Source: Cryobacterium lactosi (lineage in GTDB: Bacteria; Actinomycetota; Actinomycetes; Actinomycetales; Microbacteriaceae). Taken from it: DNA of 64,000 nt. Below, one piece after another: positions 23,318 through 56,900 of the stretch. A model generated the notes under the pieces. It was not told the origin of the DNA. It was given only the letters and a program-made list of their open reading frames with translations, and did no database searches. The stretch spans positions 2,205-66,204 of the forward strand of contig NZ_SOHM01000025.1 in NCBI RefSeq assembly GCF_004403945.1, read 5' to 3'. Position 1 is the first letter of the stretch, and each line of letters starts with the position of its first letter. The translations under genes and the position numbers were made by a program.

Positions 23318-26071
23318 CTACTTGCCGGCCTTGCGGGCCGGCTTCTTGGCGTCGGCGGCCGGGGCGGCAACCTCTGCACCGGTCTCGAGCGCGGCGTCAC
23401 CCACGGCTGCGCGGCCAGCGCGAACCTCGGCGAACGACGTGCCGTAGTACGCGGCTTCCATGAGGGTCTTCATGTCGTCCAGCATCGGCATCCGGGGGTT
23501 GGCCGGTGCGCACTGGTCGCCGTAGGCGCCCATGGCGAGCGAGTCGAGGCGGCTGATGAAGTCTTCCTCCGGCACGCCCTGTGCCTGGAAGGACGGCTTG
23601 ATGCCGACCTTGTCGCGCAGCTGCTCGACGGCCTTGGCGTAGGACTCGACGCCCTCGGCGGGGGTCGAAGCCGGGAGGCCGAGGTGCTTGGCGATCTCCT
23701 GGAAGCGCTCCGGGGCGATGTAGTGCTCGTACTTGGGCCAGCTGGTCAGCTTGGTCGGCACGGTGCCGTTGTACCGGATCACGTGCGGCAGGTAGGTCGC
23801 GTTGACCCGGCCGTGGATCAGGTGCAGCTGCGCGCCGGTGACGTGCGCCATGGCGTGGACTATGCCCAGGAAGGCGTTACCGAAGGCCATGCCCGAGATC
23901 GATGCGGCGTTGTGCATCTTCTCGCGGGCCTTGATCACGGTGTCGTCGGTGCTGCCGATGGTGCCCTTGACGCTGGTTTCGATGTTCTCGAAGATCAGCT
24001 TGATCGCGTGCAGGCACAGGCCGTCGGTGAAGTCGTTCGCGTAGACCGAGACGTACGCCTCAGTGGCGTGGGTCAGGGCGTCGAAGCCGGAGTCGGCGGC
24101 GAGGAACGATGGCATCATGGCCGTGAGCACGGGGTCGATGATCGCGACGGACGGGATCAGCGCGTAGTCGGCCAGCGGGTACTTGACACCGGTGACGTCG
24201 TCGGTGATGACGGCGAACGGGGTCATTTCGCTGCCGGTACCCGAGGTGGTCGGGATACAGACTAGCTTGGCGAGCTCACCGAGGTCGGGGAACTTGAACG
24301 CGCGCTTGCGCACGTCGAAGAACTTTTCCTTCATGTCGGAGAATTCGATTTCGGGGTGTTCGTACAGCAGCCACATGACCTTCGCGGCGTCCATCGGAGA
24401 TCCGCCACCGAGGGCGATGATGGTGTCCGGCTTGAAGGCGCGCATTTCTTCTGCGCCCTTCTCGACGGCGGCAACGGTGGGCTCGGGGAGCACGTTGTCG
24501 ATGATCTGCAGGGCAACGCGGCCCTCGCGGCGGTTGAGCACGTCGAGTATCTTGTCGACGAAGCCCAGGCGGGTCATGGTCGAGTCGGTGACGATGGTGA
24601 CCCGGGTGACGTCGCGCATGTCGGCCAGGTACCGGATGGCGTTCGGCTCGAAGTAGGTCTTCGCGGGGATCTTGAACCACTGCAAGTTGTTGTTCCTCCG
24701 GCCGATGCGCTTGATGTTGATCAGGTTGATCGCTGACACGTTGTTCGACACGGAGTTGTGTCCGTACGAACCACAGCCCAGCGTGAGCGAGGGGATGAAC
24801 GCGTTGTAGATGTCACCGATGCCACCGAGCGAGCTGGGGGCGTTGGTGATGATGCGGACAGCCTTGACGCGCTTGCCGAATTCCTCGATGATTGCGGGGT
24901 TCTCGCTGTGGATCGAGCCCGAGTGGCCCAGTCCGTCGAATTCCACCATCTGCTCGGAGAGCGAGATGCCCTCTTCGGCATCCTTGGCGTGCATGACGGC
25001 GAGAACCGGTGCGAGCTTTTCGCGGGTCATCGGCTCGTGCGGGCCGACGCCGGAGACCTCGACCAGGATGATGGACGTGTCTTCGGGAACGCTGAAGCCG
25101 GCCTGCTGAGCGATCCACACCGGCGACTTGCCGACGACGTTCGGGTTCAGCTTGGCGCCGGCGCAGTTCTCCGAGTTGGCCTGTACACCGAAGATGAATT
25201 CTTCGAGGAGGGCCTTCTCTTCTTTGTTGGTGCGGTACGCGTGCAGGATCTTGAACTCGGCCATGGCCTCGTTGTAGAGGGGCTCTTCGATGATGACGGC
25301 CTGCTCTGAGGCGCAGATCATGCCGTAGTCGAAGGCCTTCGAGAGCACGACGTCGTTGACGGCACGCTTGAGCTTGGCGCTCTTCTCGATGAAGGCGGGC
25401 ACGTTTCCGGCGCCGACGCCCAGGGCGGGCTTGCCGCAGGAGTACGCGGCGCGAACCATAGCGTTACCACCGGTTGCGAGGATGAGGGCCACACCGGGGT
25501 GGTTCATCAGCAGGGTGGACGCTTCGAGGGAAGGCTGTTCGATCCACTGGATGCAGTTGGCGGGGGCGCCGGCTGCGATGGCAGCGTCGCGGACGACGCG
25601 TGCGGCGGCGGCGGAGGATTCCTGCGCGGCCGGGTGGAAGCCGAAGATGATGGGGTTGCGGGTCTTGAGCGCGATGAGGGACTTGAAGATCGCGGTGGAC
25701 GTACAGTTCGTGACCGGGGTGATGCCACAGATGACGCCGACGGGCTCGGCGATCTCGGTGATGCCGGTGAGCTCGTCGCGGCTGATGATGCCCACGGTCT
25801 TGAGGTTCTGCATGCTGTTGGTGACGTGCTCGCAAGCGAAGAGGTTCTTCACGGCCTTGTCTTCGAAGACACCACGACCGGTCTCGGCGACGGCGTGCAC
25901 GGCGAGCGTGGCGTGCTGGGACAGAGCGGCGACGGAGGCCTTCTTGACGATGAAGTCGATCTGCTCCTGGGTGAAGTCAGCGTAATCCTTCAGCGCGACG
26001 TTGCCGGCGGCAACCAAGGTGTCGATCTGCGTAGCTATGGGAGTGGCGACTGGTTGGTCTGTGATCGTCAT
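23318..26071 (-). CDS. adhE: Bifunctional acetaldehyde-CoA / alcohol dehydrogenase
   Basis: 917-residue fermentative fusion enzyme that reduces acetyl-CoA to ethanol with two NADH. The N-terminal aldehyde dehydrogenase domain (about 1-440) has the nucleophilic Cys in YGMICASEQAV. The C-terminal iron alcohol dehydrogenase (about 450-880) has GGGSPMDAAK, TTSGTGSEMTPFAVITDD and the metal-ligand His region in GIVHAMAHVTGAQLHLIHG. The start is the ATG at 26071, behind a strong AGGAGG. The last 20 residues are Ala/Lys-rich. AdhE implies mixed-acid or ethanol fermentation or survival under low oxygen. Confidence 0.96.
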   Translation of the reverse strand: MTITDQPVATPIATQIDTLVAAGNVALKDYADFTQEQIDFIVKKASVAALSQHATLAVHAVAETGRGVFEDKAVKNLFACEHVTNSMQNLKTVGIISRDELTGITEIAEPVGVICGITPVTNCTSTAIFKSLIALKTRNPIIFGFHPAAQESSAAAARVVRDAAIAAGAPANCIQWIEQPSLEASTLLMNHPGVALILATGGNAMVRAAYSCGKPALGVGAGNVPAFIEKSAKLKRAVNDVVLSKAFDYGMICASEQAVIIEEPLYNEAMAEFKILHAYRTNKEEKALLEEFIFGVQANSENCAGAKLNPNVVGKSPVWIAQQAGFSVPEDTSIILVEVSGVGPHEPMTREKLAPVLAVMHAKDAEEGISLSEQMVEFDGLGHSGSIHSENPAIIEEFGKRVKAVRIITNAPSSLGGIGDIYNAFIPSLTLGCGSYGHNSVSNNVSAINLINIKRIGRRNNNLQWFKIPAKTYFEPNAIRYLADMRDVTRVTIVTDSTMTRLGFVDKILDVLNRREGRVALQIIDNVLPEPTVAAVEKGAEEMRAFKPDTIIALGGGSPMDAAKVMWLLYEHPEIEFSDMKEKFFDVRKRAFKFPDLGELAKLVCIPTTSGTGSEMTPFAVITDDVTGVKYPLADYALIPSVAIIDPVLTAMMPSFLAADSGFDALTHATEAYVSVYANDFTDGLCLHAIKLIFENIETSVKGTIGSTDDTVIKAREKMHNAASISGMAFGNAFLGIVHAMAHVTGAQLHLIHGRVNATYLPHVIRYNGTVPTKLTSWPKYEHYIAPERFQEIAKHLGLPASTPAEGVESYAKAVEQLRDKVGIKPSFQAQGVPEEDFISRLDSLAMGAYGDQCAPANPRMPMLDDMKTLMEAAYYGTSFAEVRAGRAAVGDAALETGAEVAAPAADAKKPARKAGK

Positions 26072-45208: not shown

Positions 45209-46282
45209 ATGAGTGGAAAGATGGCCAGCCCAGTGCAGGAGAGCGCAGACACAGTGCTGATCGGCGTCTCGTACATCATGCCGGTGCTCAACGAGGCCAG
45301 CCATGTGCGAGCCGCGGTGCAGAGCCTGCTCGAGCAGGACTACGACGGACCCTTCGAGGTCACCCTCGCCCTCGGACCGAGCATCGACGGCACGACGGAA
45401 CTCGTTGAGGAGATGGCCGCGGTGGACCCGCGCATCCGCGTCGTCGCCAACGAGGTCGGGTCGACCCCTGCGGGCCTCAACATCGCCATTCGCGCCTCCA
45501 GCTACCCCGTCGTGATCCGTGTCGACGCCCACTCCGTGCTCCCGAGCGACTACGCCCGCATCGCTGTCGAGACCCTGCAGCGCACCGGTGCCGACAACGT
45601 CGGCGGCATCATGGATGCCCAGGGCACCGCACCGTTCCAACAGGCCGTCGCCCGCGCCTACGGCACCCGCATCGGCCTGGGCGGAACCCCGTTGCACGTC
45701 GGCGGGCCTGAGGGGGAGGCCGAGACGGTGTACCTCGGCTGCTTCCGCCGTGACAGCCTGCTGCGGGTGGGAATGTTCGACGAGGGCATCAAGCGTGGCC
45801 AGGACTGGGAACTCAACCGCCGTCTGCGCGAGCACGGCGGCTCGGTCTGGTTCACGCCCGCGTTGAAGGTCATCTACCGGCCGCGGCCCAGCCTGTCCCG
45901 ACTGGCTCGCCAGATGGTCTCGACCGGGCTCTGGCGGGGCGAACTGGCCCGCAGGTACCCCGAATCGAACGGGCTGCGCTACTTCGCTCCGCCCGTCATG
46001 GTGCTCGGCGTCTCGCTCGGCATCCTGCTGGGCCTTGCCGGCCTGGTCCAGGTGCTCCTGGGCGGTCCGGGCTGGCTGCTGCTGGGGTTCGTGGCCCCAC
46101 TGGCCTACCTACTCATCGTTCTCGCCGCCACGGTCGCGTCCACCCGCGCCGACGGCGTTCGTGTCGCGCTCTGGTTTCTCGTAGTCTTGCCGTGCATTCA
46201 CTTCTGCTGGGGCGTCGGCTTTCTGCTCGGTTACCTCAAGCTCACCACCAACATCTCGGCACACACGGGAAGACATCAATGA
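45209..46282 (+). CDS. GT2 glycosyltransferase with C-terminal membrane helices
   Basis: 357 residues. The GT-A domain opens with VSYIMPVLNEASHV, has a donor-site VIRVDAHSVLPSDY (D-x-H in place of D-x-D) and GQDWELNRRLREHGG, the general-base ED/QDW-type motif. The last 100 residues form three membrane segments (about 253-277, 280-303 and 313-337). This resembles ExoA-like enzymes that build surface polysaccharides on a lipid carrier. A start at 45221 is also possible. It begins the run 45209-47972 of overlapping or adjacent genes. Confidence 0.85.
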   Translation: MSGKMASPVQESADTVLIGVSYIMPVLNEASHVRAAVQSLLEQDYDGPFEVTLALGPSIDGTTELVEEMAAVDPRIRVVANEVGSTPAGLNIAIRASSYPVVIRVDAHSVLPSDYARIAVETLQRTGADNVGGIMDAQGTAPFQQAVARAYGTRIGLGGTPLHVGGPEGEAETVYLGCFRRDSLLRVGMFDEGIKRGQDWELNRRLREHGGSVWFTPALKVIYRPRPSLSRLARQMVSTGLWRGELARRYPESNGLRYFAPPVMVLGVSLGILLGLAGLVQVLLGGPGWLLLGFVAPLAYLLIVLAATVASTRADGVRVALWFLVVLPCIHFCWGVGFLLGYLKLTTNISAHTGRHQ

Positions 46283-47091
46283 CGTCTGCTTCGCCCAACA
46301 CGGCTCGGCCCTCTTCGATCGCCGAGCTTCGTGCCGTCGCGCAACCTCCCGAGGTGCGGATGCGCGCCAACGCCGAGCACTGGACGGCCTCGCTCTACCT
46401 GCGTGATCTGTCGCCGTATCTCACCTGGATGCTGCTGAAGACGCGCATCTCGGCCAATGGTGTCACCGGCCTGATGATCCTCGTCGGCTGGTCCACCGCC
46501 GCGGCCCTGCTGATCCCCGGCATCTGGGGCGCCCTGCTCGCGCTGGTGCTCGGCCAGCTGCAAATGCTGGTCGACTGCTGCGACGGCGAGGTCGCCCGCT
46601 GGCGCAAGACATCGTCGCCCGCCGGCGTGTTCCTCGACAAGGTCGGGCACTACTCCACCGAAGCCCTGATCCCCATCGCCCTGGGCATCCGCGCCGCCGC
46701 CTACCCGTTCGAGGCACCGGCCGACTTCCTGTTCACCACCTTGGGCCTTGCCCTCGCACTGCTGATCGTGCTCAACAAGGCGCTCAACGACATGGTGCAC
46801 GTGGCCCGCGCCAACGCCGGCCTGCCCAAGCTGGCCGACAACAAGGGCGAGAAGGTGCCGCAGGCCGGCCTGATCGCCACCCTGCGCCGCCTGGCGAGGT
46901 TCCTGCCGTTCCACCGCCTGTACCACTCGGTGGAAATGACCATGGTGATCTTCGTTGCCGCGGTCATCGGCCTGGTCGCCGGACAGCCGGTCACCGACCG
47001 GGTCTTCCTGGCCGTGCTCGTTCCGCTCGCCTTCCTCGCGTTGATGGGCCACTTCCTGGCGATCATGGCGTCGAAGCGGGTGCGCTCCTGA
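46279..47091 (+). CDS. CDP-alcohol phosphatidyltransferase family, variant motif
   Basis: 270-residue membrane enzyme with about six helices. The family signature D-x2-D-G-x2-A-R-x8-G-x3-D-x3-D is present at residues 99-124 as DCCDGEVARWRK then SSPAGVFLDKVGH, but the last Asp, the proposed catalytic base, is His124. The residues before the domain (1-40) are hydrophilic. The ATG at 46279 overlaps the previous stop by 4 bases. The reaction would transfer an alcohol phosphate from a CDP-alcohol to a lipid or sugar acceptor. The substrate is unknown; in this locus it could be a glycopolymer building block. Confidence 0.8.
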   Translation: MTSASPNTARPSSIAELRAVAQPPEVRMRANAEHWTASLYLRDLSPYLTWMLLKTRISANGVTGLMILVGWSTAAALLIPGIWGALLALVLGQLQMLVDCCDGEVARWRKTSSPAGVFLDKVGHYSTEALIPIALGIRAAAYPFEAPADFLFTTLGLALALLIVLNKALNDMVHVARANAGLPKLADNKGEKVPQAGLIATLRRLARFLPFHRLYHSVEMTMVIFVAAVIGLVAGQPVTDRVFLAVLVPLAFLALMGHFLAIMASKRVRS

Positions 47092-47105
47092 GTTCAGGCG
47101 ACAGC

Positions 47106-47972
47106 ATGCCCGTCACCGTCGGCGTCGTCGTGCTCACCCAGGGCCGTCGTCCGGACGACCTGGAGCGCGGCATCCGCAGTCTGCTCGCCCAGCAGGATGT
47201 GCAGCTCGACATCGTCTGTGTCGGCAACGGCTGGCAGCCCACCGGACTGCCCGACGGCGTCGCCGCCCTCGCCCTGCCCGAGAACCTGGGCATCCCCGCC
47301 GGCCGCAACCGCGGGGTGGAGCACGTCACCGGCGACTACCTGTTCTTTCTGGACGACGACGCCAGCCTGCCGGACCCCCGGTTCCTGATCGACGCCGTGA
47401 CCGTGCTGCGCGCCGATCCCAGCATCGGGCTGTTGCAACCGCAAGTGGTCGACCCGGCCGGTCTCACCGCGCCGCGCCGGTGGATCCCGCGCATCCGCAA
47501 GGGCGAAGCCACCGAATCCGGCGCCGTCTTCTCGGTGTGGGAAGGCGCAGTGCTGATGCCGCGGCCGGTCTTCGACGCCACCGGCGGTTGGGCCGAACCG
47601 TTCTTCTACGCCCACGAGGGCATCGAGCTGGCCTGGCGGGTCTGGGACCAGGGCCTGCGCACCTGGTACGCCGGCGACCTGGTGGCGAACCACCCGGTGA
47701 TCCTGCCCACCCGGCACGCCGATTTCTACAGGCTCAATGCCCGCAACCGGGTGTGGATCGCCCGGCGCAACCTGCCGGTGCCGTTGATGCCGCTCTACGT
47801 GGGGTCCTGGACGGTGATCCAGGTGCTGCGCGGCGCCCGCGACCCGGCCGCCCTGAAGGCCTGGTTCCGCGGCTGGTGGGAAGGCTGGACCACCGACCCG
47901 GGCGAGCGGCGGCCGCTGTCGGCGCGTACCATCTGGCGGATGACCCGCGCCGGCCGGCCCCCCGTCATCTGA
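47106..47972 (+). CDS. GT2 glycosyltransferase
   Basis: 288-residue soluble GT-A enzyme. VGVVVLTQGRRPDDLERGIRSL begins the domain, NLGIPAGRNRGVEHVTGDYLFFLDDDA carries the D-D-D donor motif, and FFYAHEGIELAWRVWDQG is the acceptor/base segment of the rhamnosyl/galactofuranosyl-like GT2 group. A ~60-residue C-terminal tail with amphipathic segments (VPLMPLYVGSWTVIQVL) may attach it to the membrane. It follows the CDP-alcohol transferase gene by 14 bases. Confidence 0.83.
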   Translation: MPVTVGVVVLTQGRRPDDLERGIRSLLAQQDVQLDIVCVGNGWQPTGLPDGVAALALPENLGIPAGRNRGVEHVTGDYLFFLDDDASLPDPRFLIDAVTVLRADPSIGLLQPQVVDPAGLTAPRRWIPRIRKGEATESGAVFSVWEGAVLMPRPVFDATGGWAEPFFYAHEGIELAWRVWDQGLRTWYAGDLVANHPVILPTRHADFYRLNARNRVWIARRNLPVPLMPLYVGSWTVIQVLRGARDPAALKAWFRGWWEGWTTDPGERRPLSARTIWRMTRAGRPPVI

Positions 47973-48046
47973 CCGCATCGCCTAACGATTGGCTACCGGT
48001 GCGCCTCATCCGGGGGTCAGTAGGCCTTAGGTCCCACCTCGGTGGG

Positions 48047-48052
48047 TAGGCT
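48047..48052 (+). promoter_or_regulatory. -10 element of a leaderless TagF-like gene
   Basis: TAGGCT, six bases before the GTG at 48059. Confidence 0.5.
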
Positions 48053-48058
48053 GGAACG

Positions 48059-49342
48059 GTGGTAAGCAGGAAAGACGTCCGACTCGCAGCAAAGCTGGTG
48101 AAGGATGTGCTCGGTTCCCGCAAGGCCCAGCGTCTCCTGACCGAGCGCCTCGCCGTGCGCGGCCCGTTGCCTGCGCATACCTACAAGATCGCCGTGTACT
48201 TCGCGGATGGGCCGGTCAACCTCTACCAGATGCGCCAGTGGTACAAGCCGCTCGCCAAGCTCGCCGAGACCTGGCCAGTGGTCATCCTGAGCCGCACCGC
48301 CGGCGGCACGAATAAGCTGCTCGAGGAAAGCCCGATACCGGTCGCCTACGTGCGCAAGGTGGTCGACCTTGAACGGGTGATCGCTGAGCAGGACATCCGG
48401 ATCGTCCTCTACGTCAACCAGAATTCCCGCAACTTCCAGATGATGCGCTACGGGCGCCGCTGGCACGTTTTCATCAACCATGGTGAGAGCGACAAGATGT
48501 ACATGACCACCAACCAGTTCAAGGCGTATGACTACTCGTTCGTCGCCGGCCAGGCTGCTGTCGACAGGCTCGGCAAGGTGCTCTGGGACTACGACTTCGA
48601 CAAGCGGGCGATCGCCATCGGTCGACCCCAGGCTGACCACTATTCCGGCCTGCTGCCGTACACGCCCGATGAGCGCACGGTCGTGCTCTACGCGCCCACC
48701 TGGGAAGGCGACCGTGCCGCCGCCGCCTACGGGTCCATCGCCACACACGGCGTGGCTCTCGTCACGGCGCTGTTGCGAAGCCCCCGGCACCGGGTGATCT
48801 ACCGTCCGCACCCGCGCTCCGGAGTCGTCGACCACGAATACGGTGTGGCGAACAAGCAGATCATGGCCGCCATCACGGCCGCGAACGGCCGCGACGCCGG
48901 TGCCCAGCACATAGTCGACACTGGCGCTGAACTCGGCTGGCAACTGTCCGCCGCTGATGTGGCCATCGTGGACATCTCGGCGATGGTCTACGACCGGCTC
49001 GCGTCAGGCAAGCCGCTCATGGTGACACGGCCATTGAACCCTCACGCCGCCATCGACACCAGCGGATACCTGTCCGACTGCGAGTGGCTCGATGCCGGTG
49101 ACACCGCTGGCATCGTGGAGACTCTGGACGAGCTTGTCAGCGACAGTGGCGCCGAGCAGCGGCTGCAGGTCTGGGTGGAGCAGTACTTCGGCGATCCGAC
49201 CCCTGGCGCACCGACGGCGCGATTCCATGCAGCGGTCGAGCACCTGATGGCAGAGTGGGACCGCTTCGCCGAGGTGAACGCCGACGTCGATGACGGCCTG
49301 GCCGAGTTCGTCGACGACGTCAGCGAGATCGAAGAGGTCTAG
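48059..49342 (+). CDS. TagF-like CDP-glycerol glycerophosphotransferase family protein
   Basis: 427 residues. The middle of the protein has VFINHGESDKMYM, the His-containing acceptor/donor motif of teichoic-acid polymerases, and later VLYAPTWEGDRAAAAYGS, VIYRPHPRSGVVD and the donor-binding DVAIVDISAMVYDRLASGKPLMV. These are the G-x-x-x-D-S/SP-H-type segments of the poly(glycerol-phosphate) transferase superfamily. The N-terminal 60 residues are a basic membrane-associating stretch. The last 25 residues are acidic. It probably adds polyol-phosphate units to a wall polymer; whether the unit is glycerol is not certain. Leaderless GTG start at 48059. Its 3' end overlaps the convergent gene by 4 bases. 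Confidence 0.8.
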   Translation: MVSRKDVRLAAKLVKDVLGSRKAQRLLTERLAVRGPLPAHTYKIAVYFADGPVNLYQMRQWYKPLAKLAETWPVVILSRTAGGTNKLLEESPIPVAYVRKVVDLERVIAEQDIRIVLYVNQNSRNFQMMRYGRRWHVFINHGESDKMYMTTNQFKAYDYSFVAGQAAVDRLGKVLWDYDFDKRAIAIGRPQADHYSGLLPYTPDERTVVLYAPTWEGDRAAAAYGSIATHGVALVTALLRSPRHRVIYRPHPRSGVVDHEYGVANKQIMAAITAANGRDAGAQHIVDTGAELGWQLSAADVAIVDISAMVYDRLASGKPLMVTRPLNPHAAIDTSGYLSDCEWLDAGDTAGIVETLDELVSDSGAEQRLQVWVEQYFGDPTPGAPTARFHAAVEHLMAEWDRFAEVNADVDDGLAEFVDDVSEIEEV

Positions 49343-50220
49343 CCCTCCGCAGGGTCGACCTGGTCTGCGGGCGCGCTCCTGCGGCGCAGCGGGCGGGGGA
49401 GGGCCTTGAGCGCCCCGTGACCCAACTGAGTGAGCCGGTTGCCGGGTACCACGGTGCCGTTCTGCAGCGTGATGGTGTGCACCTTCGGGTCCAGCTCGGC
49501 GCCGAACCAGGCGGGCGCCTGGCCGAACGCGAGCCTGGACGAGCCGACGACGCGTTTGCCGAGAATGTGGTTGCCCATTCCGCCGATGACGGCGCCGATG
49601 CCGAACGGCACGGCCTTGCCGATCAGGCTGGCTCCGCCCTTGGCGGCGAACTGCCGGATGAAGGAACGCTTCAGGCGGTCGGTCAGCGGGCCCATGATGG
49701 CCCGGGGGAGGCTGGTGGTCACCAGTTCGCCCCAGTACGCCGTGCGCGCCACGCCGCCGCCGGTGACCTGGCCGGCCAGCTGGCGCACCAGGTCGGAACC
49801 CTCGTGGCCGAGCATCATGGTCATCACCAAGGCCCTGGCCCGCTCGGGGTCGCTCACCGTGATGCCGTGAACCTCGCTGATGGACTGCGAGAACAGCGCG
49901 GTCGCTTCGAGGAACCCGGCCGTCTCAACGCCCGACAGTGCGAGGGTGATGCCGGTGCCCACTCCGGGGATCACGGCGGTCGCACCGACGGCGGCGCCAC
50001 CGCTGGTCACCGCGGCGAGATAACGCCGCTCCAGGATGCGCACGAGCTGCTCCGGGGTGGCATCCGGGTGACGGTGGCGGATGCTGCGAATGTGCGCGAG
50101 AACTGCCGGGCGGTGGATTGCCATGACCCTGTCGAACCCGGTGGCGACCCCGGTGGGCAGCTGGCCGCCCCGCGGCAGTCCGCCGGTGGGCGACAGCAGT
50201 GGTGTGGGCTTCTTGGCCAT
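49339..50220 (-). CDS. Uncharacterised protein with Gly-rich hydrophobic core (EcsC-like?)
   Basis: 293 residues, no signal peptide. Two glycine-rich, hydrophobic regions (about residues 75-105, SGGAAVGATAVIPGVGTG, and about 200-230, KGGASLIGKAVPFGIGAVIG) recall the EcsC family of membrane-associated proteins, but I cannot confirm it. The N-terminal 55 residues are basic. The ATG at 50220 is preceded by GAGGAGG, clearly better than the upstream ATG at 50250. It lies inside the surface-polymer locus in the opposite direction to the TagF-like gene; a role there is only positional. Confidence 0.65.
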   Translation of the reverse strand: MAKKPTPLLSPTGGLPRGGQLPTGVATGFDRVMAIHRPAVLAHIRSIRHRHPDATPEQLVRILERRYLAAVTSGGAAVGATAVIPGVGTGITLALSGVETAGFLEATALFSQSISEVHGITVSDPERARALVMTMMLGHEGSDLVRQLAGQVTGGGVARTAYWGELVTTSLPRAIMGPLTDRLKRSFIRQFAAKGGASLIGKAVPFGIGAVIGGMGNHILGKRVVGSSRLAFGQAPAWFGAELDPKVHTITLQNGTVVPGNRLTQLGHGALKALPRPLRRRSAPADQVDPAEG

Positions 50221-50332
50221 GGTGCGGTCCTCCTCGGGTGCGCAAAGCATGAGTTTACGGTTCGAAACTGAGCGTCGGCGAGATAATTCCCAGTCAGATG
50301 CGGTGCGTTGGCCGTGACGAATTGAGGTCGGG

Positions 50333-51082
50333 TTACGTCGCCGGTTTGATGCCGTATTCAGCGTTGTACCGGTCGAGCACCTCGTTGATCGGGGCGTCGA
50401 GGACGAGGGCGCCCTTGTCGAGATAGAGGCCTCTGGCGCAGAAACGCCGCAGATCGCGTTCGTTGTGCGAGACGAAGAACAGGGTGCGTCCGCCCGCGAG
50501 GAGCTCTTCGATGCGGCGGTAACACTTCTCGCGGAAGGCCTTGTCGCCGACGGCCAACACCTCGTCGACGAGGATGATCGGCTCCTCGAGCCTGGAGATC
50601 ACGGCGAACGCGATGCGCACCTTCATACCGCTGGAGAGGTGCTTGTACGGGGTGTCGATGAAATCGGCGATCTCGGCGAACGCGATGATGTCGTCGAATC
50701 TGGAATCGATCTGCTTGCGGGTCATGCCATGCAGACCCGCGGTGAGGTAGACGTTGTCGCGCACGGTGAGGTCGTCGACGAAGCCTCCGGTGATCTCGAT
50801 CAGCGGGGCGACCCCCTCGATGACGTTCACGGTGCCCTCGTCGGGCAGGACAACGCCGGTCACCAGCTTGAGCAGGGTGGACTTGCCTTGGCCGTTCCGG
50901 CCGACGACTCCGATGGCCTCTCCACGTTGCACTGTGAACGACACGTTCTGCAGCGCCCAGAACTCACCGGGCCTGGTGCGACGGCGGGTGCTGGCGAACA
51001 GGTCCTTGAAGCTGCGGCGGCTGCGTCGGTTGCGGCGGAACCTGATCCCGACGTCGTTCAGGGAGATGACGGTCTCGGTCAT
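50333..51082 (-). CDS. ABC transporter ATPase, TagH/Wzt-like
   Basis: 249 residues. RRRTRPGEFWALQNVSFTVQRGEAIGVVGRNGQGKSTLLKLV gives the Walker A in its TagH form (G-R-N-G-x-G-K-S-T), LSSGMKVRIAFAV the signature and PIILVDEVLAVGD the Walker B, with His in FVSHNERD. It lacks the C-terminal carbohydrate-binding extension of Wzt. The start ATG at 51082 overlaps the permease stop (TGATG), so the pair is coupled. It exports a lipid-linked wall polymer such as a teichoic-acid-like chain. Confidence 0.88.
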   Translation of the reverse strand: MTETVISLNDVGIRFRRNRRSRRSFKDLFASTRRRTRPGEFWALQNVSFTVQRGEAIGVVGRNGQGKSTLLKLVTGVVLPDEGTVNVIEGVAPLIEITGGFVDDLTVRDNVYLTAGLHGMTRKQIDSRFDDIIAFAEIADFIDTPYKHLSSGMKVRIAFAVISRLEEPIILVDEVLAVGDKAFREKCYRRIEELLAGGRTLFFVSHNERDLRRFCARGLYLDKGALVLDAPINEVLDRYNAEYGIKPAT

Positions 51083-51882
51083 CAGATCTCCTTCAGAACG
51101 GCGCGCTCGGTGCGTGAAAAGACCAGCAGACCGATCCCGAGGAAGGCCACGGACATGACCGCGCTGACGGTCACGACGAACCAATCCAGTTCGCCAGGGA
51201 AGAACGCGGCACGGTAGAGGCTGAAGATACCGCTGAGCGGGTTGAATGCCGCCCAGAAATGCAGCTGTTCCGGCAGGTCGCTGGTGCCGTAGATGATCGG
51301 CGACGCATAGAACAGGAAGCGCAGGATGAGCTTGACGGCTCGTTCGAGGTCGCGGAAGAACACGACCAGCGGGGCCACGATCAAGCCGACGCCGGCGGTG
51401 AGGATGGCCTGGATGATGATGGCCAGCGGAAAGAAGATCGCGTCAATGCTGATCTCGGCACCGGACCAGATGGCGAAGAGGATCAGGACGGGGATGGCGG
51501 CGACGAACTCGATGCCTTTGGAGAGCACGAGGCGGTTCACCCAGATGGTGCGGGGGATGCGGGTGGAGCGGATCAGCTTCGCTTCGCGCAGGAAGGCCCG
51601 GGTGCAGTCGGAGACGGCACCGTTGAACCACATCCACGGCAGGAGCGCGGCGAGCAGGAAGACGATGTACGGGTCGTTGCCCACGGTGCGCTGGAAAACC
51701 TGGGTGAAAACGAACCAGTAGATGCCGGCCATAACGAGCGGGTCGAGGATCGACCAGAAGTAGCCGAGCACAGACGTTGAGTACCGCACCCGCAGGTCGC
51801 GCTGGGTCAGCAGCCAGAGGGAATGACGGTAACGCGCAAACGGGGTGCGCTGTTCAGGACGCACCTGAGCGTAACTACTCAC
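51082..51882 (-). CDS. ABC-2 polysaccharide/teichoic acid exporter permease, TagG-like
   Basis: 266 residues and six membrane helices, with the ABC-2 pattern: TQRDLRVRYSTSVLGYFWSILDPLVMAGIYWFVFT, PWMWFNGAV, then FRDLERAVKLILRFLFYASPIIYG and NPLSGIFSLYR. The start is taken as the GTG at 51882, since reading further upstream runs into the nucleotidyltransferase gene. No strong ribosome binding site is visible. It is the membrane partner of the downstream ATPase. Confidence 0.87.
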   Translation of the reverse strand: MSSYAQVRPEQRTPFARYRHSLWLLTQRDLRVRYSTSVLGYFWSILDPLVMAGIYWFVFTQVFQRTVGNDPYIVFLLAALLPWMWFNGAVSDCTRAFLREAKLIRSTRIPRTIWVNRLVLSKGIEFVAAIPVLILFAIWSGAEISIDAIFFPLAIIIQAILTAGVGLIVAPLVVFFRDLERAVKLILRFLFYASPIIYGTSDLPEQLHFWAAFNPLSGIFSLYRAAFFPGELDWFVVTVSAVMSVAFLGIGLLVFSRTERAVLKEI

Positions 51883-51906
51883 GCGCTCTATCGTATGGGA
51901 GCGAAA

Positions 51907-51938
51907 TGGGGCGCCGCGCCATCGGCGGCGGCGCCCCA
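51907..51938 (-). terminator. Hairpin between nucleotidyltransferase and permease genes
   Basis: Arms 51907-51917 and 51928-51938 (TGGGGCGCCGC and complement) with a ten-base loop. It lies 14 bases past the nucleotidyltransferase stop and 24 bases before the permease start, so it probably reduces read-through or separates the units. Confidence 0.65.
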
Positions 51939-51952
51939 CGGCTGCAGACTGA

Positions 51953-52645
51953 TCAGACGAACAGGTTGGCGCGCTCGAGGTCCTCGGCGAAGTCGACCTC
52001 GACTGCGTAGAAGTCCGAGATGTCGACGGGTTCGACGAGCATGCGGTTCTTCTCGATGGCGAGCTCGATGCCGCGCTCAAAGTAGTCCTGGTCGGCGACC
52101 TTGCTGAGGTGGTGGATCAGCATGGCCTTGTCGGCACCGGACACGTAGTTGATGCCAACGGCCTCGCCGAGACCGTTCTTCACGGTCTTGGAGAGCTCCT
52201 TGATGTAGCCCTCGGCGCTCGTCGTGTACTTGACTTCCTCGTCAGAGACCTTGGACGTGTTGACCGTGACGAAGGACTGGTCGCGCTTCATCATCGCTGC
52301 GGCGCGGTCGAGGATGGCGGGATCGAAGACGACGTCGCCGTTCATCCACAGCACGCCACCGTTGGCGGATGCGCGAAGGGCGCGCAGCAGGCTCTTGGAC
52401 GTGTTGGTCACGTCGTACTGCTCGTTGTAGACGAAGGACGCCTGCGGGAAGGCCTCGATGATGTGCTCGAGCTTGTAGCCGACGACGATGGTGACCTTGG
52501 TCTTCTTGCCGAAGGCGTGCTCGATGTTGTCGAACTGCTGCTGCATGATCGTGCGGCCGTCATTGAGTTCGGTCAAAGGTTTGGGCAGCGAGCGGCCGAG
52601 ACGGCTGCCCATTCCTGCTGCAAGTATTACTACCTGGGTGGTCAC
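51953..52645 (-). CDS. Sugar/polyol-phosphate nucleotidyltransferase
   Basis: 230-residue NTP-transferase. The N-terminal VVILAAGMGSRLGRSLPKPLTELN contains the G-x-G-x-R and P-K signature. VLWMNGDVVFDP has the metal-binding Asp and the C-terminal VDFAEDLERANLF supplies the second. Its size and start are closest to LicC-like CTP:phosphocholine and CTP:polyol-phosphate cytidylyltransferases. It could provide the CDP-alcohol for the transferase at 46279-47091 or the TagF-like enzyme. AGGAGA precedes the GTG at 52645. Confidence 0.82.
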   Translation of the reverse strand: MTTQVVILAAGMGSRLGRSLPKPLTELNDGRTIMQQQFDNIEHAFGKKTKVTIVVGYKLEHIIEAFPQASFVYNEQYDVTNTSKSLLRALRASANGGVLWMNGDVVFDPAILDRAAAMMKRDQSFVTVNTSKVSDEEVKYTTSAEGYIKELSKTVKNGLGEAVGINYVSGADKAMLIHHLSKVADQDYFERGIELAIEKNRMLVEPVDISDFYAVEVDFAEDLERANLFV

Positions 52646-52938: not shown

Positions 52939-55350
52939 GTGACTCCAGTGCCTCCGAACTCCGAGCCTGACGAGCAGACTCCTGTCTTGCCCGTTCCCGA
53001 TACGGAGCCGGAACGTGAGGGTAGTGCCATCGAACACGACACCCCTGCGGACCGCCCCCATGAGCCCGTTTCCCCGTCTACGGCCGTGCCGCCGACAGAC
53101 GCGAAACCGCCCCGCAAGACCCCGGTGCGCCGCGCGCCCAGGACCACCGCGCCCAAGCCGATGACGCCCAGGGCCGGTGGGGCGTCGAGCGCGCCCGCCG
53201 ATGCCGCCGGCACGACGGCCTCGGCCGACGCGGCTGCTCCCGACGTAACTGCTCCCGACGCTGCTACTCCCGACGCAGCGACCGCCGCCGACTCGGCCGC
53301 GCCGGTCAAGCCCGTGCGGAGCACCACCCGCGCACCGCGCACCCCCGCGTCCCCGCGAGCCGCGACGACCCCGCGCGCACCGGCCAAGAAGAAGCCCGTC
53401 ACGAAGGCTCTCGCCGAAGACGTGGCTGCGCCCCCGACGACGCCCGTGGTACCGGATGCCGACGCCGATGTCGACCGCGCCGAACCCGTCGCGGATGCCC
53501 CGCGAGTTCCGGTGACCCGCGCCCCCGCTGCCCGAAAGACGCCCGTGAAGGCGCCTGCCAAGGCCATCAGGCTGCCGGCCACCACAACCGCCACGGCGGA
53601 TACCGCTGCTGCCGTCGAGGCCGCCGCCGTCGTCGACCAGGACCTGCCCGCCGACCCCGCTCAGGCGACTGCCGACAAGCCCGCCACCGCAGCGGCGCGC
53701 TCGAGTAGCGCGCGCACGGCGGCCTCGAAGGCCGCCGCGGCGAAAGCGGCCGCCGCCAAATCGGAATCGGCGACCAAGGCCGGCGCCGCCCGCGCTGCCG
53801 CAACGAAGGCCGCCGCGACGAGGTCTGCCGCTGCCAGGACCGCCGCCACGGCCTCGGCCCGCGCCGCTACCGCTGCGGCCGCCGCTGCCGCCGCCGCCCG
53901 CTCTGCTGCCGTCGACGACACGACATCCGGTGCTGCTGCCGCGCCCGTCACCACCGGCTCCGAAACCGCTGAGCCCGTCGTGCACGAGCCCGTAGTCGCC
54001 GAGCCTTCAGTTGCCGAGCCCGTAGTCGACGAGGCCGAAGTTGACGAGGCCGTGGTTGACGAGCCCATGGTTGACGAGCCCGTCGTCATCGCGCACACGG
54101 TGGTACTGCCGATCACGCGGGCTTCCGGGCCGGCCGACGAGAACGTCGACCTGCCCGTGCCCGCCGCCGCCGACGAGACCGCCGTCCTCACAACATCCAC
54201 AGCCGACTCGGACGACACCGTGGTGCTGGGCACTGCTGGGGCCGTGAGCAGTCCTGTCACCGAGCCGGTCCAGCCGTCGCGCCGGCCGTTTTGGAAACTG
54301 CCCCGGTTGACCCTGCGGCAGTCCGACACCGTGGCCCCGGCCGAGATGCCGGCCGAGCCCAGCGAGGTCGTCACCGGTGAGGAGTCTCCGGCTGCTGCCG
54401 CGCCTGGCGAGTCCCTGACCGGCAAGGCTGCCGTCACGGCTGCGGCACCCGTCGTCATGGCCGCAGACGCCGCCCGCCCGGCCACGGTCGTGCCAGGTCC
54501 CGCGACCACGGGCGGGCTGCGCATCCCCTCGGTCGTGCGCAAGCCGTCGGTGCCGCGCACCGGCGCATCCGCAGTGGTCGGGGGCGTCGCCCCCGTCGAA
54601 ATCGCGGTCAGCGGATTGAACAAGCGTTTCGGCCAGAACATCGCCGTCGCCGACGTCAACCTCGAGGTGCGGGCCGGGTCGTTCTACGGCATCGTCGGAC
54701 CCAACGGCGCGGGCAAGACCACGACGCTTTCGATGATCACCGGGTTATTGCGGCCGGACTCCGGTTCGATCCAGGTGCACGGTGTTGACGTGTGGGCAGA
54801 TCCCATCGCCGCCAAGCGCACCATCGGGGTCCTCCCTGACCGGCTGCGCCTGTTCGACAGGCTCACCGGAGCGCAGCTGCTTTACTACTCCGGCGTTCTG
54901 CGTGGTCTCGAGAGCGAAACCGTGCGCGCCCGCTCCGCCGACCTGGCCGCGGCGTTCGGCCTCGAGGACGCCCTCAACCGCCTGGTCGCGGACTACTCGG
55001 CCGGCATGACCAAGAAGATCGCCCTGGCCTGCGCCATGATCCACTCGCCACGGGTGCTCGTGCTCGACGAACCGTTCGAATCGGTTGACCCGGTGTCGGC
55101 CGTGAACGTCACCGAGATCCTGCAGCGCTACGTCGCCGCAGGCGGAACCGTGATTCTCTCCAGCCACGGAATGGACCTCATCCAGCGGGTCTGCGACCAC
55201 GTGGCGATCATCGTGCAGGGCTCCGTGCTGGCCGCGGGAACGATCGACGAGGTGCGCGGCAACGTGTCACTCGAAGAACGCTTCGTGGACCTGGCCGGCG
55301 GACGAAAGGTTGCGGAGGGCCTGGAGTGGTTGCACAATTTCTCGGACTGA
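52939..55350 (+). CDS. ABC transporter ATPase with long disordered N-terminal extension
   Basis: 803 residues, more than three times a normal ABC ATPase. Residues about 552-790 are a complete ATPase: GIVGPNGAGKTTTL (Walker A), DYSAGMTKKIALA (signature), RVLVLDEPFESVDP (Walker B), SSHGMD (switch His). Residues 1-550 are low complexity. They comprise a Pro/Arg/Lys/Ala part (to about 210), an Ala-rich basic part (about 250-325), an acidic repeat of E-P-V-V-type units (about 340-382) and Thr/Ala/Pro linkers. No signal peptide or membrane segment is seen, so the extension is cytoplasmic. It overlaps the permease gene by 25 bases. The GTG at 52939 is supported by a leaderless -10. Confidence 0.85.
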   Translation: MTPVPPNSEPDEQTPVLPVPDTEPEREGSAIEHDTPADRPHEPVSPSTAVPPTDAKPPRKTPVRRAPRTTAPKPMTPRAGGASSAPADAAGTTASADAAAPDVTAPDAATPDAATAADSAAPVKPVRSTTRAPRTPASPRAATTPRAPAKKKPVTKALAEDVAAPPTTPVVPDADADVDRAEPVADAPRVPVTRAPAARKTPVKAPAKAIRLPATTTATADTAAAVEAAAVVDQDLPADPAQATADKPATAAARSSSARTAASKAAAAKAAAAKSESATKAGAARAAATKAAATRSAAARTAATASARAATAAAAAAAAARSAAVDDTTSGAAAAPVTTGSETAEPVVHEPVVAEPSVAEPVVDEAEVDEAVVDEPMVDEPVVIAHTVVLPITRASGPADENVDLPVPAAADETAVLTTSTADSDDTVVLGTAGAVSSPVTEPVQPSRRPFWKLPRLTLRQSDTVAPAEMPAEPSEVVTGEESPAAAAPGESLTGKAAVTAAAPVVMAADAARPATVVPGPATTGGLRIPSVVRKPSVPRTGASAVVGGVAPVEIAVSGLNKRFGQNIAVADVNLEVRAGSFYGIVGPNGAGKTTTLSMITGLLRPDSGSIQVHGVDVWADPIAAKRTIGVLPDRLRLFDRLTGAQLLYYSGVLRGLESETVRARSADLAAAFGLEDALNRLVADYSAGMTKKIALACAMIHSPRVLVLDEPFESVDPVSAVNVTEILQRYVAAGGTVILSSHGMDLIQRVCDHVAIIVQGSVLAAGTIDEVRGNVSLEERFVDLAGGRKVAEGLEWLHNFSD

Positions 55351-56900
55351 AACTGAGGCTTCTCGCCAATCTGTTCCGGCGTAGCCCCTGGCAGGTCGTG
55401 GGAGTGGTGCTCGGCCTGCTGTACGGGCTGCTCGTCGCCGCGGCGCTGTTCGCCATGCTCATCGCCTTCCGGTTCGTCGACGATGTCGCCACCATCCGTG
55501 ACGGCGTCACCGTGGTGGGGTCGCTTGTGGTGCTCGGGTTCATCCTCGTGCCGCTGGTCTTCGGCGTGGACGACAGCATGGACCCGCGCAAGTTCTCCAC
55601 CATGGGCATCCCGAATAAGCAGCTGTCCTTGGGCCTGGCAGTCTCCGCACTGGTCGGGGTGCCGGCGACGACTCTCACGATCGTGCTGCTTGGCACCATC
55701 GTGACCTGGTCGCGGGGGGTGTTCGAGACGCTGCTCGCCATCGTGGCGGCGGCCCTGCTGCTGGCAACCTGCATGCTCGCCTCCCGCGTGAGCACGTCGA
55801 TATCGGCCTTCCTGCTCTCCACCCGACGTTCCCGCGAGTTCACCGGCATCATCGGCATCCTGCTGATCGTCATGATCACCCCCGTGGTGGTGTTGCTGGT
55901 CAACGTGGACTGGAGCAAGTACGGGCTCGACCTCCTCGGCGGTTTCGCGGCCATCCTCGGGTGGACGCCGCTGGGTGCGGCGTGGGCCGTGCCTGGCGAC
56001 GCCGCTGCAGGTGAATGGGGCATGTCCCTGCTCAGGCTCCTCATCGCCGCGGCGACTGTGTACCTACTCTGGCTCTCCTGGCAGGGTCTGGTGGCCCGGA
56101 TGCTCGTGTCGCCTGGTCGTGAGGCGCAGGCCAGGGCTTACGTCGGCCTGGGCTGGTTCGACCGGATGCCGCACAACCCGGTCGGCGCCATCGCCGCCCG
56201 CAGCATCACCTACTGGGGTCGTGACCCGCGCTACTGGGTCTCGTTGATCATGATCCCGATCGTGCCGATCCTGGTTGTCCTGCCGCTCGTGTTCGCCGGG
56301 ATGCCGTTCGAATACCTTGTGCTGGTTCCGGTGCCTCTCATGTGCGTCTTCCTCGGATGGACGCTGCACAACGATGTGGCTTACGACCACACCGCCATCT
56401 GGCTGCACGTGGTCTCCGGGCCACGCGGCGTCGCCGACCGGGTCGGCCGGCTGGTTCCCGCGTTGTTCGTGGGCATCCCGCTGATCGGCCTCGGTTCGGC
56501 GGTCAGCGTGAGCATCCACGGTGACTGGGCGGTGCTTCCCGGGCTGCTCGGCGTGAGTACCTGCATCCTGCTGGCCGGGCTCGGCTTCTCAAGCTTCACC
56601 TCGGCCAGGTTCCCCTACCCGGCGACCAAGCCGGGGGACAGCCCGTTCGCCCAGCCGCAGTCGTCGGACACGGCCGCCGCGGTCATCCAGTCGCTCACCT
56701 TCGTCGGGTCGATCATCGTGGCGCTGCCGGCCATCGTGTGCGCGGTGCTGGGAATTTTCGTGGATCCGATCTGGAACCTCCCGGCTCTGTACTGGGGCCT
56801 CGGCATCGGCTTCGTCATGCTGATCGGCGGGGTGTGGTTGGGTTCGCGTACCTTCGAACGTCGCGGACCCGAGATGCTCTCCTCCGCATTGCGCGCGTAG
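55326..56900 (+). CDS. ABC transporter permease
   Basis: 524-residue membrane protein with about 11-12 hydrophobic helices, without a recognisable substrate motif. The N-terminus VAQFLGLKLRLLANLFRRSPWQ is a basic amphipathic segment, as in ABC-2-type exporters of actinobacteria that pair with a single ATPase. RDPRYWVSLIMIPIVPILVV and the last helices complete it. The GTG lies inside the end of the ATPase gene, so the two form one unit. The exported substrate is unknown. Confidence 0.82.
   Translation: MVAQFLGLKLRLLANLFRRSPWQVVGVVLGLLYGLLVAAALFAMLIAFRFVDDVATIRDGVTVVGSLVVLGFILVPLVFGVDDSMDPRKFSTMGIPNKQLSLGLAVSALVGVPATTLTIVLLGTIVTWSRGVFETLLAIVAAALLLATCMLASRVSTSISAFLLSTRRSREFTGIIGILLIVMITPVVVLLVNVDWSKYGLDLLGGFAAILGWTPLGAAWAVPGDAAAGEWGMSLLRLLIAAATVYLLWLSWQGLVARMLVSPGREAQARAYVGLGWFDRMPHNPVGAIAARSITYWGRDPRYWVSLIMIPIVPILVVLPLVFAGMPFEYLVLVPVPLMCVFLGWTLHNDVAYDHTAIWLHVVSGPRGVADRVGRLVPALFVGIPLIGLGSAVSVSIHGDWAVLPGLLGVSTCILLAGLGFSSFTSARFPYPATKPGDSPFAQPQSSDTAAAVIQSLTFVGSIIVALPAIVCAVLGIFVDPIWNLPALYWGLGIGFVMLIGGVWLGSRTFERRGPEMLSSALRA

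Follow-up and report, generated by a model that had tools for sequence, protein, structure and literature searches.

A CDP-alcohol phosphotransferase-like gene alternates with genuine TagF at one position of a putative wall polymer locus in Microbacteriaceae

The subject of this report is a cluster of eight genes at 45209-52645 of a 64,000-nucleotide stretch of Cryobacterium lactosi DNA (contig NZ_SOHM01000025.1), the whole of which we call the window. Its plus-strand genes encode a glycosyltransferase (GT2a), a membrane protein resembling CDP-alcohol phosphotransferases (CDPOH), a second glycosyltransferase (GT2b) and a divergent TagF-like protein (TagFl). Our main finding is new: GT2a-CDPOH-GT2b and a module built on genuine TagF are alternatives at one position, bounded by the same flanks, in different genomes of the family. 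The explanation we favor, at a probability of roughly 0.45, is that this is a Microbacteriaceae locus for a teichoic-acid-type wall polymer, at which CDPOH and GT2b replace the TagF polymerase. A bolder form of the idea, which we hold more tentatively, is that a membrane CDPOH without its catalytic aspartate, with His124 or the acid at 128 substituting, polymerizes the backbone with its GT2 partner and is interchangeable with TagF. That would be a second, non-homologous way of polymerizing teichoic acids.

The source genome is a 4.66 Mb draft in 53 contigs, 99.99% complete, and its CDPOH is 97-98% identical to those of C. zongtaii, C. adonitolivorans and C. arcticum. The locus consists of two convergent gene groups. 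GT2a, CDPOH, GT2b and TagFl follow one another on the plus strand; on the minus strand are a nucleotidyltransferase (NTP), TagG, TagH and a 303-residue protein. Codon-position GC agrees with the reading frames chosen, and we revised three starts, placing CDPOH at about 46279 (not 46192), TagH at about 51082 and TagG at about 51882.

45209..46282, plus strand: GT2a, family 2 glycosyltransferase with C-terminal membrane helices, read from the sequence (PF00535, 63.9 bits; cut-off 23.3)
46279..47091, plus strand: CDPOH, class I CDP-alcohol phosphotransferase-like membrane protein, signature residue D4 replaced by His124 (PF01066, 31.2 bits; cut-off 22)
47106..47972, plus strand: GT2b, family 2 glycosyltransferase paired with CDPOH (PF00535, 41.1 bits)
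48059..49342, plus strand: TagFl, divergent PF04464-type GT-B protein with an NHGE motif (PF04464, 19.4 bits; below the 22.1 cut-off)
49339..50250, minus strand: conserved 303-residue protein (no Pfam match above cut-off)
50333..51082, minus strand: TagH-type ABC ATPase (ABC_tran, 76.5 bits)
51082..51882, minus strand: TagG-type ABC permease, start inferred (ABC2_membrane, 51.4 bits)
51953..52645, minus strand: NTP, MobA/LicC/PntC-type nucleotidyltransferase (PF12804, NTP_transf_3, 66.4 bits)

Pfam matches bear out every gene class that the original prediction, made from the letters alone, had placed here; the one weak label is the TagF-like one, whose 19.4 bits fall short of the curated cut-off of 22.1. 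The 303-residue gene is a member of the locus that the prediction had not mentioned, and it is kept in all 65 of the named loci with full flanks.

The alternation is plainest in the 93 family genomes with a strong match to TagFl. Counting a gene as near when it lies within 7 kb, and counting genuine TagF among the PF04464 matches listed, which reach down to about 76 bits, 55 genomes have CDPOH near and no genuine TagF near, 33 have TagF near and no CDPOH, five have neither and none has both. No CDPOH match at E 1e-20 occurs anywhere in the 33 TagF-type genomes. Many genera have neither CDPOH nor GT2b, and one or two genuine PF04464 proteins take their position; those we scanned score 191 bits (locus L053), 470 bits (L057) and 436 bits (L068), the last two having two domains each. 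GT2a travels with the module, since its identity to the window's copy is 59-76% in 25 CDPOH+TagFl loci and 43-53% in 15 TagF-type loci. NTP is at least 72% identical to the window's in both locus types, wherever the stretch contains it (22 of 25 and 11 of 15). As for the five genomes with neither module, one (G118) has a TagF about 20 kb off, three (G061, G113, G146) come from fragmented assemblies, and in G065 the TagFl is the most distant that we kept (43%); G113 also has a PF04464 relative (best E 5.3e-21) that falls just under the listing limit of about 76 bits and was not counted. Among the matches listed, 41 of the 55 CDPOH+TagFl genomes, the window's included, have no genuine TagF anywhere. 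A search of the window genome for genuine TagF returned TagFl alone, below cut-off, with the Bacillus subtilis control positive. We found no description of this module swap in the open-licence PMC literature searched.

The prediction had suggested comparing the locus across Microbacteriaceae, and on doing so we found it to be widespread. Among 150 genomes of the family, NTP is present in 110 and TagFl matches at E 0.001 in 104. Of the 93 genomes with a strong TagFl match, one is the window's own, 91 have an identity of 56-74% and the last has 43%; the 11 left out had a best match weaker than E 4e-96, the strongest of them (G114) at 42% identity. Forty loci of 20 kb were compared for six markers (aminotransferase, PDZ protease, TagFl, TagH, NTP and permease), and all six are present in 26. 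The other 14 are without at least one, either because the stretch ends too soon or because the gene is truly absent (L035, L039, L043-L045, L049, L061, L064-L066, L068-L071). The 65 named loci with full flanks, which were picked by CDPOH, span Cryobacterium, Agromyces, Agreia, Herbiconiux, Leifsonia, Frigoribacterium and others; GT2a and GT2b each occur in 65, TagFl in 57, TagH in 51, TagG in 50 and NTP in 47. The grouping is not due to chance, because both glycosyltransferases are present in 65/65 and TagFl in 57/65 of loci that were chosen by CDPOH. Synteny across the family also rules out a unique or horizontally gained island.

NTP keeps close company with the two modules. It is present in all 66 CDPOH genomes, and CDPOH is found in none of the 40 genomes without NTP; 107 of the 110 NTP genomes have CDPOH or a genuine PF04464 gene among the matches listed, the exceptions being G065, G113 and G146. 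Its best solved relative is PntC (6pd1; E 2e-7), a nucleotidyltransferase-aminotransferase fusion. The co-occurrence of NTP with CDPOH and TagF, together with the relationship to PntC, fits a supply of CDP-alcohol donor that would be common to both modules. PntC also brought phosphonate chemistry to mind. We set that aside; a PEP_mutase Pfam scan of the genome gave five matches, which are not specific and decide nothing.

By score (31.2 bits against 22 for PF01066) and by fold, CDPOH belongs with the class I CDP-alcohol phosphotransferases. Its AlphaFold model (predicted local distance difference test score, pLDDT, 78), from which we read six probable membrane helices, matches AF2299 at Z 16.8 and a root-mean-square deviation (rmsd) of 4.5 over 212 aligned residues; the next unrelated fold reaches Z 6.4, and rows 1-19 of the structure matches are all from the family. 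AF2299 is the best relative in sequence as well as in fold. It and the bifunctional DIPP synthase of Archaeoglobus (PDB 4o6m, 4mnd) are the closest solved relatives; CDPOH differs from both in having neither the fused nucleotidyltransferase domain nor D4. An excerpt of PMC4634129 describes eight absolutely conserved residues in these enzymes, D1xxD2GxxAR...GxxxD3xxxD4, names D4 as the probable catalytic base and reports that the substitution D93N nearly abolishes the activity of the Mycobacterium tuberculosis enzyme; D93 is the presumed base in an excerpt of PMC6506517 also. CDPOH departs from the strict signature at exactly this residue. Seven of the eight are kept in 46 of 46 sequences and D4 is lost, replaced by His in 33/33 family sequences and by His (seven) or Ala (six) in 13 distant ones, to give 40 His and six Ala in total. 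An acid four residues after D4 is kept in all 46. AF2299 likewise has an acid there in the alignment, so the kept acid is not itself new; the missing D4 is. Two further PF01066 proteins of the window genome retain D4. The named loci have His at D4 in 80 of 80, a count that is partly circular, one scan pattern having included His; the 46-sequence count is less biased, its distant part being 13 of 20 distant matches. CDPOH is a homologue with the family fold and not a strict signature member.

The nature of the donor is where the strongest competing explanation begins. CDPOH matches four NCBIfam models, all far under cut-off (archaetidylinositol phosphate synthase, bifunctional DIPP synthase, PIP synthase and PssA), and three of these four enzymes use lipid donors (in part, PMC4634129). 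CDPOH might then use CDP-diacylglycerol to add a phosphatidyl-like anchor to the glycan, giving a product resembling lipoteichoic acid whose chain is made by TagFl or other enzymes. Lipoteichoic acid is recorded in an excerpt of PMC3196553 for Agromyces, a genus that carries the locus. Set against this, the best relatives, AF2299 and the bifunctional DIPP synthase, are described in the PMC4634129 excerpt as not processing lipids; the NTP found in every CDPOH genome would be superfluous for a CDP-diacylglycerol donor; and the exclusion of TagF would go unexplained. We think a lipid donor unlikely, although it fares better than the other alternatives.

TagFl had been cast in the original prediction as the enzyme that extends the chain, a part it does not seem to play. 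As the only polymerase it can be rejected: it adjoins both modules, and 11 CDPOH genomes have no strong TagFl match. For these same two reasons CDPOH with GT2b looks the better candidate for making the backbone. The window's TagFl falls short of the PF04464 cut-off, but single PF04464 matches in several CDPOH-type genomes are much stronger (for example E 8.0e-8 in G129), and these we take to be the TagFl orthologue scoring above cut-off. Its motif is NHGE in 42 of 42 orthologues, as against WHG in the TagF genes of all 15 TagF-type loci; an excerpt of PMC11666461 ties WHG to glycerol-phosphate polymerases and variants of it to other transferases. The TagFl model (pLDDT 77) has a GT-B fold. Its top chain is a capsule multienzyme (8a0c; Z 20.7, rmsd 4.1, 324 aligned), and the match to TagF (3l7l; Z 19.2, rmsd 4.0, 316 aligned) is tied with unrelated GT-B chains at Z 19.8; neither Foldseek nor VIA rankings separate TagF from other GT-B folds. 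A profile of TagFl against PDB sequences gave one weak, unrelated match only. Because it has NHGE instead of WHG, and stands beside both modules, our preferred reading is that TagFl would carry out a priming or transition step.

TagH scores E 7e-56 and 1e-45 with PRK13545 and PRK13546, two models of ATPases for teichoic acid export, under their equivalog cut-offs, and TagG has matches, none reaching cut-off, to the permease models for galactan, KpsM and VexB. Five LCP genes are present in the window genome, so that the exporter of TagGH type and the LCP ligase that characterize a wall teichoic acid pathway are both found, with the proviso that TagH is under the equivalog cut-offs. The prediction had noted that tagO and tagA were absent from the window: TagA (PF03808) indeed has no match in the whole window genome, with a positive B. 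subtilis control, but two TagO/MraY-type genes (PF00953) lie on other contigs, and one of the two genes may be MraY. AraM as a source of alcohol can be set aside. No Fe-ADH_2 match was found among the locus genes, and those in the genome, one of them outside the locus at about 24374-24640 of the window, reach 32-46 bits only, against 93 and 108 bits in two distant loci.

The absence of TagA opens another route, in which the linkage or priming unit that would depend on TagA is replaced by one that CDPOH and GT2b make, and the main chain is the work of other enzymes. Genuine TagF elsewhere in 14 of the 55 CDPOH+TagFl genomes, and in 11 of 11 CDPOH genomes without strong TagFl, could supply such a chain. 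But 41 of the 55 have no other TagF among the matches listed, and a primer module and a polymerase module should not exclude each other at one position, which leaves this improbable to our minds. Slightly less probable again is that the GT2 enzymes make a glycan with no backbone of teichoic type, which CDPOH and NTP decorate with a phospho-alcohol side group of the phosphocholine or phosphoethanolamine kind. NTP shares a superfamily with the cytidylyltransferases PntC and LicC; the replacement by a TagF module in 33 genomes nevertheless points to the backbone. That the product is no polymer at all but a small phosphodiester solute or glycolipid is very improbable: the DIPP synthase relatives make a soluble phosphodiester, and two squalene/phytoene synthase genes adjoin the cassette in one presumed Streptomyces locus scanned (L114), but the locus has a TagG/TagH-type exporter and the genome LCP enzymes.

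The replacement of TagF by CDPOH and GT2b can be set out as a pathway, conditional at each step. NTP would make a CDP-alcohol from an alcohol phosphate. A lipid-linked primer would be made elsewhere, probably from a TagO-type start and without TagA, and TagFl may add to it the first or transition alcohol-phosphate. CDPOH would then transfer alcohol-phosphate from the CDP-alcohol in alternation with the addition of sugar by GT2b, building a poly(glycosyl-alditol phosphate) chain, to which GT2a could contribute another backbone or side sugar. Judged by family, TagGH would export the chain and LCP enzymes ligate it to the wall. The outline of the original prediction, a locus for a cell-surface phosphate polymer with TagGH-type export, is supported by the genuine TagF that sister genomes hold in the same position and by NTP in 66/66 CDPOH genomes; its gene-by-gene scheme is supported in part, but not in the TagF-like extender.

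Several points weigh against our explanation. With D4 absent, and the D93N enzyme of M. tuberculosis nearly inactive, CDPOH might work by a different chemistry or not be an active enzyme at all. Among the closest enzymes, soluble molecules serve as acceptors and CDP-diacylglycerol is the donor for some, so that more than one donor and acceptor come into question for CDPOH. The gene content, the synteny, the alternation of the modules, the company of NTP and the altered signature are observed; the donor, the sugars, the order of steps and the product we infer. Fourteen of the 55 CDPOH+TagFl genomes hold a genuine TagF elsewhere; the 11 genomes that carry CDPOH without a strong TagFl match all have a genuine PF04464 gene elsewhere. 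Five of the 33 TagF-type genomes lack NTP (28 have it), and a genuine PF04464 gene occurs in 10 of the 40 genomes without NTP, so not every TagF depends on it. Then there is ancestry. Fisher's test of the exclusivity of the modules gives p 3e-20, a figure that ignores it. A tree built on the flanking proteins of 43 loci takes 10 changes to accommodate the three module labels, against a shuffled mean of 16.8, and well-supported branches force at least four changes for the TagF type. Four supported independent pairs are all opposite, as expected, but the sign test gives p 0.125, which is not significant, and a single TagF-type clade is not rejected (approximately unbiased test, p 0.064). The exclusivity of the modules cannot be fully separated from ancestry and, because of those two values, repeated swapping of the modules is suggested and not proven.

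Nine of the 11 loci with CDPOH and no strong TagFl (L072-L080) were laid out gene by gene. All have GT2a, CDPOH and GT2b followed by the 303-residue gene, and TagFl is absent from every one; GT2a is interrupted by a contig end in L079, and NTP is present in eight of the nine stretches.

We also looked beyond the family, in a draw of 396 genomes across the phylum in which the best six candidates per genome were scored, so that absence is soft. CDPOH matches at 1e-12 in 21: three of its own family, 11 of one genus and seven of other lineages. The genus is probably Streptomyces, judging from neighboring genes and published synteny. We examined the loci of 13 of the 20 distant matches: 11 have GT2b within 1.5 kb, and eight have a TagH homologue somewhere in the stretch; of the two without a nearby GT2b, L116 ends at the CDPOH gene and L117 has none. 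The two distant genomes of L116 and L117 each have a second CDPOH paralogue, 38% identical, in which D4 is Ala, and L117 has neither GT2b nor a TagH homologue nearby. Both distant loci scanned with Pfam (L114, L118) have Fe-ADH_2, AraM-type, directly upstream, at 93 and 108 bits.

These loci bear on novelty. A Streptomyces region with a CDP-alcohol phosphatidyltransferase, a GT2, tagG, tagH, araM, a sugar-phosphate nucleotidyltransferase and crtB is called teichoic-acid associated in an excerpt of PMC13118837 (2026), and with so similar a gene set in print, "undescribed", the word used in the original prediction, was too strong. In L112-L115, presumed to be this region, CDPOH (42% identical) and GT2b (41-43%) are adjacent and accompanied by a TagH homologue. 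The differences are an araM-type Fe-ADH adjoining the cassette (L114), which the window locus does not have; no TagF-like gene found in the 20-kb stretches; and Ala, not His, at D4.

The tag/tar loci of B. subtilis and Staphylococcus aureus, whose gene content for wall teichoic acid served as our comparison, have, like the C. lactosi locus, an exporter of TagG/TagH type, a PF04464-type protein and a nucleotidyltransferase, with LCP enzymes encoded in the genome; 33 sister genomes have genuine TagF within 7 kb of TagFl. Unlike them, the window genome has neither TagA nor genuine TagF, and it has CDPOH and two GT2s instead; no TagD-type match was found among the locus genes scanned. TagF-like capsule polymerases make poly(glycosylpolyol phosphate) (excerpts of PMC5974469 and PMC11666461) by the alternating transfer of polyol-phosphate and sugar that we propose here, but theirs is a GT-B, TagF-like domain for the phosphate step whereas ours would be an unrelated membrane fold. 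A tag cluster of Bifidobacterium (PMC12286996) is likewise actinobacterial, with PF04464-type genes, tagG, tagH and a cytidylyltransferase; it has two tagB genes, and the excerpt of that paper does not mention a CDP-alcohol phosphotransferase.

A few observations stand to one side. Large fusions of TagF-type and GT4-type domains occur elsewhere in the genomes of two CDPOH-type strains (L083:9396-11918 and L085:7108-12294), the fusion being 840-866 residues long in three proteins scanned; L082 and L084 have TagF relatives of similar size (by blastp only), and L086 a GT2-TagF fusion. The 303-residue protein adjoins both alternative modules, and a relative at L053:12038-12901 is weakly EcsC-like (18.2 bits, cut-off 30.4). 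The interval between TagFl and the 303-residue gene is a possible insertion hotspot. Some relatives have foreign genes there, for a type ISP restriction enzyme, a ResIII helicase-type protein and a topoisomerase IB (L066:10850-15538, L035:10783-13791 and L053:11027-12022). Beyond NTP, at 52939-55350 of the window, an 803-residue open reading frame begins with 540 residues rich in Ala, Pro and Thr, without a Pfam match, and continues as an ABC ATPase. Its neighbor at 55326-56900 has no Pfam match at 1e-3, and the pair borders the locus in many relatives.

If CDPOH and GT2b do polymerize the backbone, two unrelated chemistries would make the wall polymers of a large actinobacterial family, swapping at one locus, and a signature residue of the CDP-alcohol phosphotransferases would be dispensable. 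Sister genera would then be predicted to differ in backbone according to the module they carry, some having a sugar within the chain and others a plain polyol-phosphate chain.

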